34,453 nt of DNA from Acidimicrobiaceae bacterium (GTDB taxonomy: Bacteria; Actinomycetota; Acidimicrobiia; Acidimicrobiales; RAAP-2). The notes below the pieces were generated by a model, which saw only the letters and a program-made list of their open reading frames with translations, did no database searches and was not told where the DNA came from. Shown here piece by piece: positions 3,705 through 15,598 of this stretch (its first letter is position 1; each line of letters opens with the position of its first letter). The translations under genes and the position numbers were made by a program. The stretch covers positions 1-34,453 of the forward strand of contig PLNQ01000060.1 of assembly GCA_003141815.1 (NCBI GenBank). The letters are read 5' to 3'.

Positions 3705-4562
3705 GTGGATGAGGTGGACGCTGGCCTGTTGGTCCTCGTGGCGACGCCGCTCGGGAACCTCAGCGACCTCTCTCGTCGGGCCCTGGAACTTTTCGAGACA
3801 GCCGACGTCATCTACTGCGAGGACACGCGCCACTCGAGAACGCTCTTCAGCGCCCACGACATTTCCCTCCGGGGCAGACTTCACTCCCTGCACCAGCACA
3901 ATGAAGCGGCCCAGTGTGCCCAGATCGTCGCACGCGTTCGTAACGGCGACCTCGTGGTCCTTATCAGCGACGCGGGCACGCCAGGCATCTCCGACCCCGG
4001 GAGTCGTGTCGTGGCGGCCGTGATCGAGGCCGGTCTCGTCGTGACGACAGCGCCTGGACCCTCCGCCGTCGTCGCGGCTCTGACCATCAGTGGACTCTCG
4101 ACGGAGCGATTCGTCATGGAGGGCTTCCTCCCTCGAAAGTCCAGCGAGCGGGCGAAATTTTACGAGCAGTGGGCGCGCGAAGAACGAACGATTGTCTTCT
4201 ACGAGTCGCCACAGCGCCTGAAGGGTGTTGTTCGCGAACTCGCGGACATCTTTCCGACGCGACGAGTGGCGATCGCGCGCGAGATGACCAAACTTCACGA
4301 GGAGGTGCTTCGCGGCAGGCTCGCGGACGTGGCCGTGGCATTGGATCAACGTGAGGTGATCGGCGAGATCGTCGTGGTGCTCGAGGGCGTGTCGTTCACG
4401 CCCGTCGTGGAGGACGACGTCGTGCGCGCGGCTCTGGTCGAACAGTTCGACGTCGGCGCGTCCACGCGCGACGCCGTTGACTATGTCGCCGAGATGTTGG
4501 GGGTCGCGCGCCGTGAGGTGTACCAACACGCCCTCGAATTGCGAAAAGCCGAGCCGCACTAG
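3705..4562 (+). CDS. rsmI: 16S rRNA (cytidine1402-2'-O)-methyltransferase RsmI
   Basis: A SAM-dependent enzyme that 2'-O-methylates C1402 of 16S rRNA in the decoding centre. The 285 aa protein belongs to the tetrapyrrole-methylase fold. Key motifs are VATPLGNLSDLSRRALE at the N-terminus, YCEDTRHS, ISDAGTPGISDPG, TAPGPSAVVAAL and FYESPQRL, all diagnostic of RsmI. Its length matches the family. The GTG at 3705 follows a weak GAGGGA ribosome-binding sequence. The neighbour metG lies 17 nt downstream, but that gene has its own -10-like hexamer, so co-transcription is optional. Confidence 0.95.
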   Translation: MDEVDAGLLVLVATPLGNLSDLSRRALELFETADVIYCEDTRHSRTLFSAHDISLRGRLHSLHQHNEAAQCAQIVARVRNGDLVVLISDAGTPGISDPGSRVVAAVIEAGLVVTTAPGPSAVVAALTISGLSTERFVMEGFLPRKSSERAKFYEQWAREERTIVFYESPQRLKGVVRELADIFPTRRVAIAREMTKLHEEVLRGRLADVAVALDQREVIGEIVVVLEGVSFTPVVEDDVVRAALVEQFDVGASTRDAVDYVAEMLGVARREVYQHALELRKAEPH

Positions 4563-9583: not shown

Positions 9584-9952
9584 GTGCCCTGGCAACTCCA
9601 TCACGTGCAACTCGCCATTCCCCCCGGTGAAGAGGGTCATTGCGACGAGTTCTACGTGACCTTGTTGGGATTTGAAGAGCAAGTCAAGTCACCCCAGCAG
9701 GCCGCGCGCGGTGGCCGCTGGTACCAACGAGACGAGGCGGCCCTGCACCTCGGAGTCGAAGAAGATTTCCGTCCGGCGAAGAAGGCACATCCCGCCCTCG
9801 CCATTGAGAACTTCGACGAAATAGTCGCGCGCCTGACGGGCGCGGGTGTTGACGTCCGCTTCGATGACACAATTCCCGGTCGACGCCATTGTTACGTCGA
9901 CGACCCCGTGGGCAACCGGCTCGAGCTGATCGACGCCGCTAGTTCTCGCTGA
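9584..9952 (+). CDS. VOC-superfamily (glyoxalase/bleomycin-resistance-like) protein
   Basis: A 122 aa single-domain protein of the vicinal-oxygen-chelate fold, a family of metal-dependent lyases, dioxygenases and binding proteins. Seen are the N-terminal HHVQLAIPPG strand with the first His, FYVTLLGFEE, the central ALHLGVEEDF segment, and the terminal HCYVDDPVGNRLELI pattern with the conserved Glu. The substrate cannot be predicted. The start GTG has a strong AGAGGAGA site 6 nt upstream, so unlike many genes here it has a true leader, with TAGGTT at about 9547-9552 as a possible -10. It ends overlapping the convergent ferredoxin gene by 14 bp. Confidence 0.85.
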   Translation: MPWQLHHVQLAIPPGEEGHCDEFYVTLLGFEEQVKSPQQAARGGRWYQRDEAALHLGVEEDFRPAKKAHPALAIENFDEIVARLTGAGVDVRFDDTIPGRRHCYVDDPVGNRLELIDAASSR

Positions 9953-10178
9953 CGCGCTCGATACGCAGCGCCTGGCGTGGACAACCGCGCACCGCGAAGC
10001 GTGCCGATTCGAGAGTGGCGAGATCGCTCAAGGGCGTCGGCTCTCTTTTGATAATGGGATAGCCCCACTCGTCCATGCTCACGAGCTCCGGTGCCAGTTC
10101 GTGGCAGTGGCCAAAGCCGTCACAGAGGATTGGGTTCACTCGAAGGTAAAAGACGCCCGCGCGTCGTCTCACTCCCAT
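9939..10178 (-). CDS. Small 3Fe-4S-type ferredoxin
   Basis: A soluble one-electron carrier of about 79 aa. The cysteine pattern is CDGFGHC near residue 20 and a final CPRQAL near residue 67, three ligands in all, with the fourth position occupied by other residues. That is the pattern of [3Fe-4S] ferredoxins of the Fer4_13 type that often serve P450s or oxidoreductases in actinobacteria. It is last in the redox cassette. Its start overlaps the stop of the NuoF-like gene (either ATG at 10178 or GTG at 10172, the latter as GTGA), so it is co-translated and is the likely partner of that protein. Confidence 0.85.
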   Translation of the reverse strand: MGVRRRAGVFYLRVNPILCDGFGHCHELAPELVSMDEWGYPIIKREPTPLSDLATLESARFAVRGCPRQALRIERVSEN

Positions 10179-11446
10179 ATGAGCTCGCTCTCTTTTTCCA
10201 GTCGCGGTACCGCGACGAAGAACTTCCCCGAACGCGAGGCATTGCAGGGCGCCCCGCGCGCGTGACCCTGAAAGTCCCCGGCGAAGACGCGAAGAGCCGA
10301 TCGGACCAGGCGCACTACCCCGTCGGGGTGGCGACAGGCGCCGCGGCCGTCGATGACTCCACAACGGTGTTCGAGTCGCTGGAGGGCCTGAGACGAGTTT
10401 CGTTTTCCGGCGACGACTTCGGCGAGATCGTCACTCAGGGCGGGAAGTCCAAAGGCGCACGGTCCGCACTGACGCGCGCTCTCGTTGGCCATCCATTTGA
10501 CGACGCGTTGCGTCTCCATGACCCCACAGCCCTCGCGTCCGAGCGCCACGATGATCCCCGCGCCCACCGTCGCGCCCCACTGCGCCAGGGATTCGTTGTC
10601 GTAGGGCGTGTCGAGGTGCGCGGCGTCCAGCCACGAGCCCCCGTAGCCACCGAGCAGCAACGCTTGGGGGTCGGCGTCGGCGTCGGCGAAGTTGAGGACG
10701 GTTCGAAGCGTCATGCCCGCGACGACCTCGAGGACCTTTGGACGCTCGACGGCGCCCGTGACCGTAACGAGCGTCGATCCCGGACTGATCGTGGTCCCGA
10801 GGGTGCGAAACCACGCGGCGCCAAATCGACCGATCAGCGCGACGTGGGCGCAGGTCTCGACGTTGTCGAGTAACACCGCGTGATGGCGGATCTTGAGGAT
10901 GGAGGGACGCTGGGGACGGTACTGGGGGAGTGACTCGTTGTCGTTGAGCCAGTGCACCAGCGCCGACTCCTCGCCGGCGACGTAACGCCACGGTGCCGTT
11001 TCGAGTTTGAACTGCGGCCCGCGGGCACCAACGCGCGCTCGTTCGTCGAGTGCGCGTTGCACGTTGCCCACGGCGGTGGGATTGTCGCGCGACACGCACA
11101 CGATGACGTCTTTGGCGCCGATGATCGAGGCGAGGATCGCCGCGCCGTCAAGCACGAGGTGCGGGTTCGTGCTGAGCAACGTCGAATCCTTGTACGAAAC
11201 GGGTTCGCCCTCCATTGCGTTGACGACGACCACCTTGTTGTGGCCGCGCTGGTCACGCAGGAGTCGGGCTTTACGAGCGGTGGGAAAGGCGGCGCCGCCG
11301 CGACCAGTGAGGCCCGAGGCCTCGAGTTCGTCGAGGAGCGACGCAACTTTGACGGTCGTCGCGAAGGTCGCTTCGTGCTGTCCGAGCGTCAATGGGGTGC
11401 CCGGCGTCCCGTTGAGAAGACGAGGGAGTTCTTGCGCGAGCATCAT
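10169..11446 (-). CDS. NuoF-like NAD(P)H/FMN/iron-sulfur oxidoreductase with SLBB domain
   Basis: Resembles the electron-input subunit of complex I and of RnfC/HoxF-type enzymes: NADH and FMN sites, an SLBB domain, then an iron-sulfur domain. Seen are LTGRGGAAFPTARKARLL (FMN/NADH glycine loop), NAMEGEPVSYKD, YVAGEESALVHWL, SLBB strands VTVTGAVERPKVLEV, and a C-terminal ESARQCGPCAFG followed by HRCGVIDGRGACRHPDG. In NuoF the cluster motif is ESCGxCxPC, so the first Cys is Ala here; the extra Cys in HRCG may replace it. The 425 aa length fits. No other complex I subunit is nearby. It overlaps the membrane-protein gene (ATGA) and the ferredoxin gene, suggesting one electron-transfer complex. Confidence 0.85.
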   Translation of the reverse strand: MMLAQELPRLLNGTPGTPLTLGQHEATFATTVKVASLLDELEASGLTGRGGAAFPTARKARLLRDQRGHNKVVVVNAMEGEPVSYKDSTLLSTNPHLVLDGAAILASIIGAKDVIVCVSRDNPTAVGNVQRALDERARVGARGPQFKLETAPWRYVAGEESALVHWLNDNESLPQYRPQRPSILKIRHHAVLLDNVETCAHVALIGRFGAAWFRTLGTTISPGSTLVTVTGAVERPKVLEVVAGMTLRTVLNFADADADPQALLLGGYGGSWLDAAHLDTPYDNESLAQWGATVGAGIIVALGREGCGVMETQRVVKWMANESARQCGPCAFGLPALSDDLAEVVAGKRNSSQALQRLEHRCGVIDGRGACRHPDGVVRLVRSALRVFAGDFQGHARGAPCNASRSGKFFVAVPRLEKESELIWE

Positions 11447-12177
11447 CGGCGCTTCTTCGATCGGCTAGGGGCCTGACTTCGAGGGAAGGACTGCGCTTTG
11501 GCGCTCGTTCCAGGGGGTGTGGCCGCGCTGGGCTCACTGCGGGGGAATGAGGACGACGCCTTCGTTGACACCGGCCGGGGCGTCGCTGGTGCGGGACCTT
11601 TGCTCGCGGCGAGCGGGGAGAGTGCGGTACGCCCTGCGGCGCGAGTGGGGCGCTTGAAGTAGCGCAAGAGAGCGGCGGCGAGCACGCACGTTGCGCAGGC
11701 CGCCACGACGGCTAGACCGACACCGCTCTTGGCGTCGGTGCCTGTGAGGTAGGCGTGCAGGATGGCACTCGAAAAGGCCAACCAGCTGAACCAGTGGATG
11801 AAGCGCCACGTCTCGTTCTTCACGCGAACCTTCAAGAGGCTCGAGATCCAGACGGCGAGGATGAGGTCGAAGGCCACCGCGCCCAGCGCCACGCCGACGC
11901 GACGGTAGGCGGACGTCATGGGCACAAGCACCGAAATCCAACCGGTGGGTACGTAGGAGTCGATCACCGTGGTCGTGATGTGTAGAGCCAGAAAGATCAT
12001 CGCGACGATGGAAACGGAGCGGTGCAGTTCGTTGACCTCGAAACGCCCCACGACGGTACCCCCGACACGGTTCGCCACGAGCGTGCCCAAGGTCACGACG
12101 AGCGTGAAGAGCACGAGCGTCACCATCCCGGTGGCCCTCGTCGTGTACCAGAGGTAGGGCGTGGTGAGGGCGATCAC
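11443..12177 (-). CDS. Ferric-reductase-like di-heme transmembrane protein
   Basis: A 244 aa membrane protein with about five or six helices in the first 170 residues, of the ferric reductase-like transmembrane (cytochrome b) type. Two helices carry histidine pairs spaced for stacked b hemes: ELHRSVSIVAMIFLALH (His-x13-His) and IHWFSWLAFSSAILH (His-x12-His). Residues 170-244 form a Pro/Ser/Ala-rich, basic tail, probably disordered and cytoplasmic. It has no FAD/NAD-binding reductase domain of its own, so electrons must come from a partner; the adjacent NuoF-like protein and ferredoxin are the obvious ones. It overlaps ApbE upstream (GTGA) and the NuoF-like gene downstream (ATGA). Confidence 0.85.
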   Translation of the reverse strand: MIALTTPYLWYTTRATGMVTLVLFTLVVTLGTLVANRVGGTVVGRFEVNELHRSVSIVAMIFLALHITTTVIDSYVPTGWISVLVPMTSAYRRVGVALGAVAFDLILAVWISSLLKVRVKNETWRFIHWFSWLAFSSAILHAYLTGTDAKSGVGLAVVAACATCVLAAALLRYFKRPTRAAGRTALSPLAASKGPAPATPRPVSTKASSSFPRSEPSAATPPGTSAKAQSFPRSQAPSRSKKRR

Positions 12178-13073
12178 GCGGACACCTCGTCGAGGGGCCA
12201 GCCGCCAACGAACTCGACGCTGCCGTCGTTGCGCACGAAACGCCCCGACCAGCCGGCTTGGGCGACGTGGTAGCCGGCGTCCTCACCCCAGAGCAGTGAC
12301 GCGGTGGCGAAGGCGTTGGCGAGCACGCAGTTGCGGGCCGAGACCGTGGCGGTGGCGTACGGGCCCACCGCGTAGCTCCCCGTGCGTGGATCGACGATGT
12401 GATTGACGATCTGTCCACTCGCGCGCCACGTGCGCGCAGTAGTGGACGACGTCGCGATACCGCCGTCGTGGATCGCGACACGCGGTTCCTTGCCGTCAAG
12501 CTCGAGTGAGTCGCTAAGGCCAATGGCCCAGAGTCCCTGGGGCCCTCGACCGCGAACCGCGACGTCGCCGCCGACTTCGACGACGACGCCGCCCGTGGGC
12601 GCCACGTCGTTCGCGATCAAGTCGGCCACGAGCGCTTTCGCGCTCGCGCCGAGGTCGAGTTGACAGCCGGGCGCGAGCATCACCGTGTGCTCAGCGCGAT
12701 CGAGGTCGAAGGCGCTCGCGCCGACGCCCTTCACCGGTTCGGCGAGGGTGATGTCGCCGCGACCTTTCAGTTCGTCGTAGTCGACGTCGTAACCAAGCGC
12801 CAAGAGGGCGGGCAGCACGCTGGGGTCGCAAAGTCCTTGGGTGGCCTCATGCGCCAGGAGCGCGGCGCTGAGAGCGAGTTCCAACGTGGCGCTGATCGCC
12901 ACGGTCTCACCGGCGCGAGCGTTCACTCGTGAGATCTCCGAATCGTCTCGAAAGCGATTGCACGCACCATCAAACTCGTTGAGCCAGTGCCATAGTCGTT
13001 CTTGGGCGAAGTTTAACTGGTGCTCGTTTTCGGTGACGAGCGTTCCGCTGAGCCCCCAGATCTGGAAGTTCAT
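12174..13073 (-). CDS. apbE: ApbE-family FAD:protein FMN transferase
   Basis: Transfers FMN from FAD onto a Ser/Thr of a target protein, forming a covalently flavinylated redox carrier. The 299 aa protein matches the family: NRFRDDSEISRVN early on, GLCDPSVLPALLALGYD, LDLGASAKALVAD (usually LDLGGIAKG), VVEVGGDVAVRG, IVNHIVDPRTG and a late ANAFATASLLWG where many homologs have ADALATA. There is no signal peptide or lipobox, unlike Gram-negative ApbE. No protein in the cassette shows a clear flavinylation motif (S/T-G-A-S/T), so the acceptor must lie elsewhere or be cryptic. It is 7 nt after the Thr-rich gene and coupled to the heme protein. Confidence 0.93.
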   Translation of the reverse strand: MNFQIWGLSGTLVTENEHQLNFAQERLWHWLNEFDGACNRFRDDSEISRVNARAGETVAISATLELALSAALLAHEATQGLCDPSVLPALLALGYDVDYDELKGRGDITLAEPVKGVGASAFDLDRAEHTVMLAPGCQLDLGASAKALVADLIANDVAPTGGVVVEVGGDVAVRGRGPQGLWAIGLSDSLELDGKEPRVAIHDGGIATSSTTARTWRASGQIVNHIVDPRTGSYAVGPYATATVSARNCVLANAFATASLLWGEDAGYHVAQAGWSGRFVRNDGSVEFVGGWPLDEVSA

Positions 13074-13080
13074 GGCGCTG

Positions 13081-13464
13081 CTAGTGGCAGGTCACTTGAC
13101 CAGACGGTGAGGTGGTGCACACCGTCGTCGTCGTGACCGGCGCCGTGGTCGGGACCGTCGTACTGGGAGTAGTGGGCGTCGTCACTGGTTTCGTCGTGGT
13201 CGAACCCGACGAATCGTCGGATTCTGACGAGCTGGAAGTGGAAGGCGTGGTCGTCGTGGGGGTGTCGTCCGACGTCGTGGACGTGCTACTTGTCGTTGAG
13301 GGAACGGTGGTGGGTGTCGAGACGATGGGCTTCGCCGCACCGGCTAAGTACACGACGGCGACGCCAGAGAGTACGCCCGAGCCCAGAAGGAGGGCCTGGG
13401 TGAGGCGACGGACTCGTGCGAATCGACGATCGCGTTGCTGGGGGGTGCGGGCAGCTGGTGTCAT
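13081..13464 (-). CDS. Thr/Ser-rich membrane-anchored protein at head of redox cassette
   Basis: Not recognised as a family. The 127 aa product has a basic N-terminus (about residues 1-22), one hydrophobic helix at about 24-46, then about 75 residues made almost entirely of Thr, Ser, Pro and Asp. It ends VCTTSPSGQVTCH, with two cysteines near the C-terminus. Topology suggests an outward-facing, probably glycosylated stalk. A ribosome binding site (AAGGAAA) precedes the ATG. It ends 7 nt before apbE, so it is the first gene of the redox cassette or of an extended operon with the kinase. It could be a wall-spanning linker or a truncated relic of an FMN-binding protein; both are guesses. Confidence 0.75.
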   Translation of the reverse strand: MTPAARTPQQRDRRFARVRRLTQALLLGSGVLSGVAVVYLAGAAKPIVSTPTTVPSTTSSTSTTSDDTPTTTTPSTSSSSESDDSSGSTTTKPVTTPTTPSTTVPTTAPVTTTTVCTTSPSGQVTCH

Positions 13465-13550: not shown

Positions 13551-14900
13551 CTACGTTTGCTCCGTCTCGGGCACGGTGATCGTGAATCGAGCGCCGCCGA
13601 GCGTCGGATCGCGGTCAACGGCGACGGTGCCACCGATCTCCTCGACGACTTGGGCGACGATGGAGAGTCCGAGCCCCGAGCCCGGCAGTGATCGAGCAGA
13701 CGGTGCTCGCCAAAACCGGTCAAAGACGAAGTGGCGGTCCTCGTCACTGATGCCTTGACCACTGTCGGAGACCGTGATGGTGCCGTGCGAGGACTCCACG
13801 ATGATGCGACCGCCGGTCGGCGTGAACTTGACCGCGTTCGTCAGCAGATTGGAGATCGCGCGGTTGAGACGGTCGTGTCGGGCCAGCACGTAGGACGGCT
13901 CCATCTCGACGTCAATCGTGATGTCGCGAATACGGGCGTAGGTGCGAGCCGTCTCGACGCACTCGTCGACGCAGTCGTCGAGTCGAAGGGTCTCGAGCTC
14001 GCCCTCGGACTTCTCGCCGCGGGCGAGCTCGCCGAGGTCGGTGACGAGCGCCGCGAGCTCGTCCACCTGGGTGACCATGTCGTCGGTGATCTGGCGTAGG
14101 TCGTCGGGGTGCAGTTCGGGCGCGCGCGAGAGCACTTGGGCGTTCGTGCGTAGAGACGTCAACGGCGTCCGGAGTTCGTGGCTCGCGTCGAGGACTAGTT
14201 GGCGCTGCAGCGTCTGACTGCTCTCCACCGATCGCAGAAGTCGGTTGAAGACGCGTCGGAGTCGACCAAGTTCGTCAGCGTCACCTTCGTCCAGCCGGTA
14301 CTGCAGGTCGTTGGTCATGGCGACGGTCTCGATCTCGTTGGTGACCTTCTCGAGGGGGTGGAGGGCCTGGCGCGCGAGGAACAGTCCGAGGCCCAAGGCC
14401 AAGAGCAGACCACCGGCCGCGACCAACATCAGGGTCGTCACGAGGCGAGTGAGTTCGGTGATCTGGCCCGTGATGTTGACCATGTAGAGCTGCGCCGAAG
14501 TCGTTGAAATCTGACAGACTTGCGTCTGGCCCGTCTGGCAGTTGACGAGGGAGTTCTTGGGCAGTGGTTCGATCAGTTGGCGGTAGCTCTGACCATTGAG
14601 GGACACGGTTCGAATGACGCGTGCGCTCTTACCTTTCGCGACGCTCAGGATCGTGGAGTCGATGCGCACGATGGACGGGGGCAACGTCGTGCCACTGGGC
14701 AGCACGATCTCTGAGTAGGAACCGGTGACGCGGTTTTCTTCACTCACGCTGTGCGTCTGTTGCGAGGCCTGAATCAGTGACACGTCCACAGAGCGCAGGA
14801 TGGCGCTACGCGCTACGAGAAACGACGCAAAACTCGCGAGGATGACCGCGATCGCGGCGGCCGCCACGGTCGCGGTGATGACGCGTAAGCGAAACGTCAC
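13551..14900 (-). CDS. Sensor histidine kinase, HAMP type (MprB-like)
   Basis: A membrane-bound kinase of 449 aa. It has TM1 at about residues 8-28, an extracytoplasmic sensor of about 120 residues, TM2 at about 155-178, a HAMP linker, HisKA with DASHELRTPLTSL (phospho-His), an N box (AISNLLTNAVKF), a G1 box (VSDSGQGISDED), an F box (FDRFWRA) and a G2 box (GSGLGLSIVAQV). All catalytic boxes are intact. The sensor holds a Cys-x7-Cys pair (NCQTGQTQVC), a possible disulfide. The GTG start overlaps the regulator's stop (GTGA); the open frame extends upstream to 15035 only as a shadow. A small TCGC-GAA-GCGA hairpin and ATTTT follow the stop, a weak possible terminator. Confidence 0.93.
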   Translation of the reverse strand: MTFRLRVITATVAAAAIAVILASFASFLVARSAILRSVDVSLIQASQQTHSVSEENRVTGSYSEIVLPSGTTLPPSIVRIDSTILSVAKGKSARVIRTVSLNGQSYRQLIEPLPKNSLVNCQTGQTQVCQISTTSAQLYMVNITGQITELTRLVTTLMLVAAGGLLLALGLGLFLARQALHPLEKVTNEIETVAMTNDLQYRLDEGDADELGRLRRVFNRLLRSVESSQTLQRQLVLDASHELRTPLTSLRTNAQVLSRAPELHPDDLRQITDDMVTQVDELAALVTDLGELARGEKSEGELETLRLDDCVDECVETARTYARIRDITIDVEMEPSYVLARHDRLNRAISNLLTNAVKFTPTGGRIIVESSHGTITVSDSGQGISDEDRHFVFDRFWRAPSARSLPGSGLGLSIVAQVVEEIGGTVAVDRDPTLGGARFTITVPETEQT

Positions 14901-15598
14901 GACGTTCGAAGCGCGTAACCCACTCCGCGCACCGTTTGGATGAGTCGCGCCTTGTTGTCTTCTTCGAGTTTGCGCCGGAGGTAGCCAATGTAAACGGCCA
15001 ACGAGTTCGTTCCCGAGTCGAAGTTGTAACCCCACACCAGATCCAGGATCTGATCGCGGGTGAGTACCTGACGAGGGTGGTGCAAGAACAGTTCGAGCAG
15101 GTCGAACTCGATCTTGGTAAGTTCGACCAGTCGAGCGCCGCGATGCACTTCACGCGTCTGGGGATTGAGCGTGAGATCCTCGAAACGAAGTACCGTGCCG
15201 TCGACGTCAGCGACGTTGTGTCGACGAAGCAACGCGCGCAGGCGCGCCAATAACTCCGCCAGGTCGAAGGGCTTCACGAGGTAGTCGTCCGCTCCCACAT
15301 CCAGGCCCTCGACACGGTCGTTCACGGCGTTGCGAGCGGTCAACATCAAAATGGGCGTCGTATCGCCCGAGCGACGAATGCGACGACAGATCTCAAGTCC
15401 GTCAATGTCGGGTAGTTGAAGGTCGAGCACGATGGCGTCGGGAGCTCGAAGTTGTATGGACTTCAGCGCCGTGGCGCCGTCTTCGAAGAGCTCGACGTCG
15501 TAGTTCTCCATACGGAGGGCGCGGCCGAGGGCCGATCGGATGGCCGAGTCGTCGTCGACGATGGCCACGTAGGAGTTGGGTGTAGGAGCGGTGGTCAC
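14897..15598 (-). CDS. OmpR/PhoB-family response regulator (MprA-like)
   Basis: A 233 aa DNA-binding regulator, partner of the overlapping kinase. The receiver domain shows the acidic pair VDDDSAIR, the phospho-acceptor in IVLDLQLPD, the Thr of MLTARN and the Lys of LVKPFDL. A C-terminal winged helix follows: LTKIEFDLLELFLHHPRQVL, LDLVWGYNFDSGTNSLAVYI and the RGVGYAL end. The overall pattern is closest to mycobacterial MprA. The GTG start at 15598 has CCTAGAAAGT shortly upstream but no clear SD. Targets are not visible from sequence; the redox cassette downstream on the same strand is the closest candidate. Confidence 0.94.
   Translation of the reverse strand: MTTAPTPNSYVAIVDDDSAIRSALGRALRMENYDVELFEDGATALKSIQLRAPDAIVLDLQLPDIDGLEICRRIRRSGDTTPILMLTARNAVNDRVEGLDVGADDYLVKPFDLAELLARLRALLRRHNVADVDGTVLRFEDLTLNPQTREVHRGARLVELTKIEFDLLELFLHHPRQVLTRDQILDLVWGYNFDSGTNSLAVYIGYLRRKLEEDNKARLIQTVRGVGYALRTS

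Follow-up and report, generated by a model that had tools for sequence, protein, structure and literature searches.

What could an ApbE flavin transferase modify when no recognisable flavin carrier is encoded beside it? The question is raised by a five-gene operon in a 34,453-nucleotide (nt) stretch of DNA from an Acidimicrobiaceae bacterium (GenBank assembly GCA_003141815.1, contig PLNQ01000060.1, positions 1 to 34,453), referred to here as the window. The operon encodes a Thr/Ser-rich membrane-anchored tether, an ApbE-family protein, a membrane cytochrome, a NuoF-like protein and a small ferredoxin. As read from sequence, the finding proper combines a conserved tether tail with an altered ApbE site and with the absence of any FMN_bind domain that could be recognised. 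We lean towards reading the operon as a transmembrane electron exporter that would be fed by reduced nicotinamide adenine dinucleotide (phosphate), NAD(P)H, and whose outer end would be flavin mononucleotide (FMN) carried on the tether tip.

The host assembly comprises 2.93 Mb in 186 contigs (completeness 89.9%, contamination 5.0%), and its closest named relatives are Acidimicrobiaceae metagenome-assembled genomes with the isolate names 'palsa' and 'bog'. The open reading frames (ORFs) lie on the minus strand at 13081–13464, 12174–13073, 11443–12177, 10169–11446 and 9939–10178. An earlier, sequence-only reading of the window had described five linked minus-strand genes, and the ORFs and their Pfam families confirmed this. 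It had also given every junction as 4 or 7 nt, which holds for the 7-nt gap between tether and apbE and for the 4-nt overlaps of the cytochrome gene with apbE and with the NuoF-like gene, but not for the last junction; here the genes overlap by 10 nt, provided that the ferredoxin begins with ATG 10178, whose Met is retained by 98% of 66 close relatives.

Conservation was counted over the best 80 named loci of relatives (L036-L115), and the same-genus survey covered 60 genomes. The sequence-only reading had proposed co-occurrence in relatives as a check, and 74 of the 80 loci were found to carry apbE, the PF01794 cytochrome gene, the NuoF-like gene and the ferredoxin gene in the same order. A contig edge cuts off five of the remaining six, and in the sixth, L108, only the NuoF-like gene was seen. 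By our own count, the NuoF-like protein is present at no less than 460 bits in 52 of the 60 same-genus genomes.

The tether (P0001, 127 residues, 13081–13464, minus strand) is rich in Thr and Ser and has a single N-terminal hydrophobic segment, read from the sequence at about residues 25–44 (13333–13392, minus strand). It belongs to no Pfam family; up to an E-value of 10, only matches with E >= 1 were obtained. The basic stretch RDRRFARVRR precedes the membrane segment, so the N-terminus is probably inside the cell. The sequence-only reading had called the protein an anchor and saw in it only a stalk, overlooking the conserved C-terminal tail C116-TTSPSGQVT-C126-H127 (13084–13119, minus strand). 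Tethers with this kind of tail, here termed type A, occur in the window and 55 further loci (n = 56), range from 96 to 194 residues, and end in the pattern C-x-[ST]-[STA]-[PA]-S-G-x(3-5)-C-x. All 56 have the S, the G and the last C, and in 55 of the 56 the first C is in register too. Two positions always hold a hydroxyl residue, the S of S-G and, three places earlier, the [ST]. The conserved residues are encoded by varying codons (TGC/TGT for C; TCG/TCC/TCA/TCT for S; GGC/GGT/GGA/GGG for G), so the constraint acts on the protein. The idea that the tether is an FMN_bind protein whose domain was lost in this genome only was rejected: the codon changes are synonymous, 55 other loci share the tail, and only 1 of 55 has a Shine-Dalgarno-like word within the final 40 nt of the tether gene.

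A filter placed tether relatives at the first-gene position in 65 of the 80 loci. The other 15 comprise five cut by contig ends, five without an apbE match and five scored as having no stalk; among the last, L073 and L085 do carry type A tails when read from the DNA, bringing the set to 58, and in L106 and L111 the tether sits between apbE and the cytochrome gene. In L103 the operon is whole except that its tether gene (about 4190-4400) has no intact tail. A tether was found in 12 of 20 phylum-wide neighbourhoods and was not seen in the other eight (L201, L207, L208, L209, L211-L214), nor in L147 or L151.

The window tail, SPSGQVTCH, does not match the canonical ApbE motif D-x-x-[ST]-G-A-[ST]. 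Second, paralogous operons within the genus (type B; L152-L157, L160, L161) mostly have two tethers before apbE, and TTGAS lies near the tether end in 11 of 12, where shuffling expects 0.01; the first tether of L160 (...ATTRASGTG...) has TTRAS in place of TTGAS, and its second is intact. Type C and phylum-wide tails finish in VSGQS, VSGGS, VSGGT or VATGGS, with VTSGAS in L204 and L205. Type B tethers and those of L204 and L205 thus carry [ST]GAS but not the Asp that opens the ApbE motif. Outside types A and B, [ST]G[AGQ][ST] lies within the last six residues of 21 of 30 tails against 0.59 expected, and 15 of 30 end exactly in [ST]G[AGQ]S against 0.12 expected, figures that serve as a guide only, the patterns having been fixed post hoc on related rows. 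Expected counts came from shuffling each tether's own letters, and the list includes tails that do not fit; it omits the first tether of L197 (GNSDD end), the damaged first ORF of L155, L111 (whose ApbE is as in L145) and the extra downstream tethers of L152 and L161. The tips TTGAS, SGAS, SGGS and SGQS are the ApbE motif [ST]GA[ST] or close to it.

The adjoining protein (P0002, 12174–13073, minus strand) matches the ApbE family PF02424 at 1.6e-38, in agreement with the identity first given to it. Its residues were assigned by alignment to V. cholerae ApbE (6nxi), with numbering from a review and an offset that we worked out ourselves; on this basis Ser209, His225 and Asn253 align with Ser241, His257 and Asp285. 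The Asp-Ser-His triad is therefore incomplete, Ser and His being kept and Asn253 (12315–12317, minus strand) standing where the Mg-binding Asp is expected (Asp285 in V. cholerae, Asp301 in FmnB). Among 97 operon ApbEs, a set that includes near-copies (L111 and L145 are identical), the metal Asp is replaced by Asn in 87 and Glu in 10 and is found in none, while the Ser and His are present in 96, with one gap. Position 257 is Thr in 87 and Lys in 10; Lys257 goes with Glu253 in the rows checked one by one, and the type B operon apbE encodes Glu and Lys where Asp and Thr are usual. ApbEs near FMN_bind genes keep the Asp in 27 of 28, the exception, L118, being a poor alignment that was excluded from the comparison at position 166. 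There, Asn is found in 26 of 27 FMN_bind-adjacent enzymes, and the operon ApbEs have Glu in 69, Ser in 14 and Asn in 8 of 97, which hints at a charge swap between positions 166 and 253. In a quick tree the Asp group forms one side of a branch (Shimodaira-Hasegawa approximate likelihood ratio test 100), with two changes each to Asn and to Glu; 40 of 120 inner branches are open. P0002 has no N-terminal hydrophobic signal, and a hydrophobicity scan (not SignalP) found a strongly hydrophobic N-terminus (>1.6) in 1 of 89 relatives, so that any flavin transfer by these enzymes would take place in the cytosol.

Other candidate targets were sought around the operons and across the genomes. The FMN_bind profile gave no match in 118 operon loci, some of them cut short, and detected 30 of 30 loci chosen for FMN_bind as a positive control. 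No FMN_bind (PF04205) match was found in 19 of the 60 same-genus genomes, and 17 of those 19 hold the operon NuoF-like protein with exactly one ApbE match (completeness 70-97%). The single ApbE adjoins the NuoF-like gene on the same contig in 15 of the 17 and lies on another contig in G012 and G021. The operon was not found in one of the remaining two genomes (G013), and the other (G047) has three ApbE matches and perhaps a missed FMN_bind protein. Searches for DUF2271 and NqrB/RnfD were negative in all 20 genomes covered, the 17 single-ApbE genomes included, as was that for DUF3570 in the 17. Because PF04205 matches are weak in this genus, more weight rests on the absence of a second ApbE. 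By these searches, the 17 genomes would have an ApbE lacking a target among the kinds tested (Flavodoxin_4 and FMN_red were not searched), and the adjacent tether becomes the candidate. Across the phylum PF04205 had no match in 12 of 14 ApbE-bearing genomes, but Pfam missed FMN_bind-like lipoproteins with the motif AGSS beside Asp-type ApbEs in L223 and L225 (G399, G305), invisible to the PF04205 genome searches, and a long ORF of G444 encodes an additional Asp-type ApbE. The 'orphan' status of ApbE in the whole phylum was therefore withdrawn, and only the same-genus count is used.

The remaining three proteins would supply the electrons. The bis-His cytochrome (P0003, 11443–12177, minus strand) adjoins apbE, matches Ferric_reduct PF01794 at 3.1e-7 and has a basic C-terminal tail. 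The two His pairs originally proposed were upheld by a 20-row alignment, in which His52, His66, His128 and His141 are invariant. A structural model (predicted local distance difference test 65.7) places His52 and His66 on helix 45-75 and His128 and His141 on helix 121-145, and shows five long helices where MsrQ-like proteins, taken for comparison, have six; four invariant His on two helices are predicted to form two heme sites. The best folds in the PDB were STEAP1 (E 0.005), STEAP2 (0.006), SpNOX (0.016) and NOX5 (0.28), at template modelling scores of 0.40-0.50.

The NuoF-like protein (P0004, 10169–11446, minus strand) has FMN, SLBB and Fe-S domains and matches Complex1_51K (2.6e-34) and NADH_4Fe-4S (6.4e-15), in line with the input protein described earlier, with one correction to its cluster Cys. 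Three of the usual four are kept (C327, C330 and C371), and the first is Ala in the window and in 94% of 66 rows. C327, C330, C371, C307 and C401 are 100% conserved in 66 type A rows. The score of 197.2 bits lies below the NuoF NCBIfam equivalog cut-off of 558.65. The ferredoxin (P0005, 9939–10178, minus strand) matches Fer4_15 (PF13459, 5e-7) and has three Cys, 19, 25 and 66, conserved at 98-100% in 66 rows. Its pattern, C19-x2-F-x2-C25 ... C66-P, with a residue other than Cys at the fourth ligand place, agrees with the single-cluster 3Fe-4S type predicted earlier.

These parts suggest a path in which NAD(P)H would reduce the FMN and Fe-S cluster of the NuoF-like protein, and the small ferredoxin would carry electrons from there to the membrane cytochrome. 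Within the cytochrome, electrons would cross the membrane from an inner heme (His52/His128) to an outer heme (His66/His141). The operon's own cytosolic ApbE would have placed FMN on the C-terminal tip of the tether before or during its export, and electrons would pass from the outer heme to this FMN and on to an acceptor in or beyond the wall; within the tether's reach, Fe(III), oxygen, a quinone or a partner enzyme are candidates. The tip is TTGAS/SGAS or SGGS/SGQS in related operons and a Cys-ringed loop in the window's group. A minimal ApbE motif of seven residues has been described, with tags working best at the N or C terminus (PMC12052999), so a short tether tip can be enough. In type A, FMN may sit on the invariant Ser, on the [ST] three positions ahead of it or on a Cys, or flavinylation may have been lost.

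The core gene order, tail conservation, absence of FMN_bind, the 17 single-ApbE genomes, the split between ApbE lineages and the invariant His all favour this electron exporter. So do two of a later set of five Asn/Glu-type ApbEs fetched by ApbE match alone, which have tethers nearby that end SGGTGD (L221) and SGASGAYR (L227). No tether was found near the other three, and we lowered our confidence for that reason.

Several points count against the proposal, beginning with the fact that flavinylation of the tether is itself a prediction. The operon ApbE looks cytosolic and the tether tip is expected outside. In FmnB, both Mg ions are bound by Asp301, and replacing metal-site residues with alanine abolished or greatly reduced activity (PMC8906456), so Asn or Glu at the metal site may mean changed or lost activity in the operon enzymes. 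The tethers lack the leading Asp of the ApbE motif, the loss of which is reported to have a minor effect (PMC12052999). No Ser or Thr is conserved three residues after the S of S-G in type A tips, and in 12 of 58 the stretch from S-G to the last Cys lacks both. Nine of the 30 tails outside types A and B miss the motif (SSQS, TGSSGF, SSSSSF, SHAS, TFAS, SSGS, SRGS twice, SNAS), and the post hoc choice of patterns tempers the other 21. No tether was found near the Asn/Glu-type ApbE in L147, L219, L220 or L222, and tether and ApbE are far apart in G136 and G407. Both the FMN_bind profile and PF04205 missed the lipoproteins of L223 and L225, and the PDB fold matches are weak and suggestive, none reaching E <= 0.001. 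In L219 and its relative L220, the Asn-type ApbE occurs with a ferredoxin, separate from the NuoF locus.

The tether might instead be a structural, sensory or thiol element, forming a disulfide outside the cell, with ApbE modifying another, unrecognised protein and the tether simply forming part of one envelope module. The Cys pair conserved throughout type A, the missing acceptor Ser/Thr at the usual place, the kinase and regulator adjoining the operon, and target searches that did not extend to Flavodoxin_4, FMN_red or unknown targets would all suit such an element. It nevertheless seems rather unlikely, given that type B and C tails, whose genes occupy the equivalent position next to apbE, match the ApbE motif or come close to it, and that the known targets tested are absent from 17 genomes. 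The altered metal site bears on a further alternative, that the operon ApbE is no FMN transferase and binds or hydrolyses flavin adenine dinucleotide (FAD), feeding FMN to the NuoF-like protein, while the cytochrome reduces quinone or oxygen without a flavin carrier. FAD binding and hydrolysis are reported for Treponema Ftp in the text available from PMC4767422, which does not contain the residue names that were sought, and replacement of the metal Asp in 97 of 97, together with the FmnB results, fits this view. We give it a slim chance, as the triad Ser and His are kept in 96 of 97 and the enzyme stays paired with tethers that bear a flavinylation motif.

The window's own genome also holds a second flavinylation operon (L001, G000:C133), with a cytochrome fused to a reductase domain and the genome's one FMN_bind protein, which has a Thr-rich linker and an SGAS motif. 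Were this the target of the operon ApbE, the tether would be a plain stalk. That is very improbable, since the L001 protein adjoins its own Asp-type ApbE and 17 same-genus genomes hold the operon without an FMN_bind protein or a second ApbE. Gene content does not fix the direction of flow, and electrons could pass inward from an outside donor through the outer flavin to ferredoxin or NAD+. STEAP and NOX families export electrons, however; with these as the nearest folds, and no outside dehydrogenase recognised in the operon, inward flow is extremely improbable.

The exporter reading has a known relative in the MsrQ-like flavinylation systems, in which ApbE is combined with a PF01794 cytochrome and, in 31 of 1797 clusters, a NuoF-like PF10589 protein (Meheust et al. 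2021, PMC8238504, as far as available). NAD(P)H-fed export through a cytochrome that has no reductase domain fused to it, as first proposed for the window, fits our results; the claim that the arrangement is new falls, because those 31 clusters had been counted. What is already known is the combination of ApbE, cytochrome and NuoF-like protein; what is new is the tether tail as a candidate target. Common to both are, in Actinobacteria, a PF01794 bis-heme membrane protein with ApbE next to it and, in some clusters, a NuoF-like protein. In the available text of the same survey, MsrQ-like systems 'typically include' an FMN-binding-domain gene, and entry rests on a predicted signal peptide or lipid site in ApbE or the FMN-binding gene. 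The operon differs in that it has no recognisable FMN-binding-domain protein and no evident signal on ApbE, adds a ferredoxin gene, and has as its proposed target a domain-less tether with a C-terminal motif. It would work like an MsrQ-like exporter but falls outside the survey's rules on signal and FMN-binding gene.

Its parts also depart from their relatives. V. cholerae ApbE and Listeria FmnB share PF02424 and the triad Ser and His with the operon enzyme, which has Asn/Glu for the metal Asp and no N-terminal signal. NuoF of complex I has the same FMN, SLBB and Fe-S domains, whereas P0004 scores below the cut-off, has lost the first cluster Cys and is partnered by a one-cluster ferredoxin. 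The engineered Flavin-tag (Tong et al. 2021, in the accessible part of PMC12052999) is likewise a short terminal motif used as ApbE target; the tether is natural, membrane-bound and without the leading Asp, and the window motif is itself altered. In PMC11334425, as far as its text was available, Flavodoxin_4 and FMN_red are added as targets and tethers are not named; its FMN_red targets carry a flavinylation-like motif on an unstructured C-terminal extension, as the tether does, but on a flavin-binding fold, and the tether has no folded domain known to Pfam. The main text of PMC8238504 lacks the words 'stalk', 'disordered' and 'Thr-rich', and the survey states that some ApbE targets remain unidentified; even with DUF2271 and DUF3570 included, 670 genomes had an ApbE without a known target. 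Searches of an open-access library, a scope outside which most subscription papers fall, turned up no account of tethers of this kind. It is close to an even call, tipping slightly to the doubtful side, whether domain-less, disordered membrane tethers with a C-terminal mini-motif form a new class of ApbE target, paired with Asn/Glu ApbE lineages, in which the tip of the window's group would be a Cys-ringed S-G loop that accepts FMN at a new residue (the preceding [ST], the invariant Ser or a Cys).

Upstream of the operon lies a two-component system (13551–15598, minus strand, by Pfam), with a histidine kinase as a listed ORF at 13551-15035 and a response regulator at 14897-15598. A histidine kinase on the same strand stands within 400 bp upstream of the operon in 53 of 55 type A loci, so operon expression is likely to be regulated, probably by this system. 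A small glyoxalase-family gene (9584-9952, plus strand) runs towards the operon and shares 14 nt with the end of the ferredoxin gene; relatives of it are present in 14 of 55 type A loci. Away from tethers, genes of the Rieske oxygenase type, read from sequence without a family search, adjoin the NuoF-like gene in L158 and L211, which suggests that this NADH-oxidising module is also put to another use. In L207 (G202, a 7.9-Mb genome in which ApbE was not found) the NuoF-like protein is fused with ferredoxin, beside a long membrane protein. Both arrangements would fit a general NAD(P)H:ferredoxin reductase pair.

For this family, the tether gives the orphan apbEs of one actinobacterial group a specific candidate target, and ApbE lineages whose metal site has changed in nature become available. 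For Acidimicrobiia, the operon would exemplify a minimal surface relay, of natural origin, that passes electrons through a flavin.

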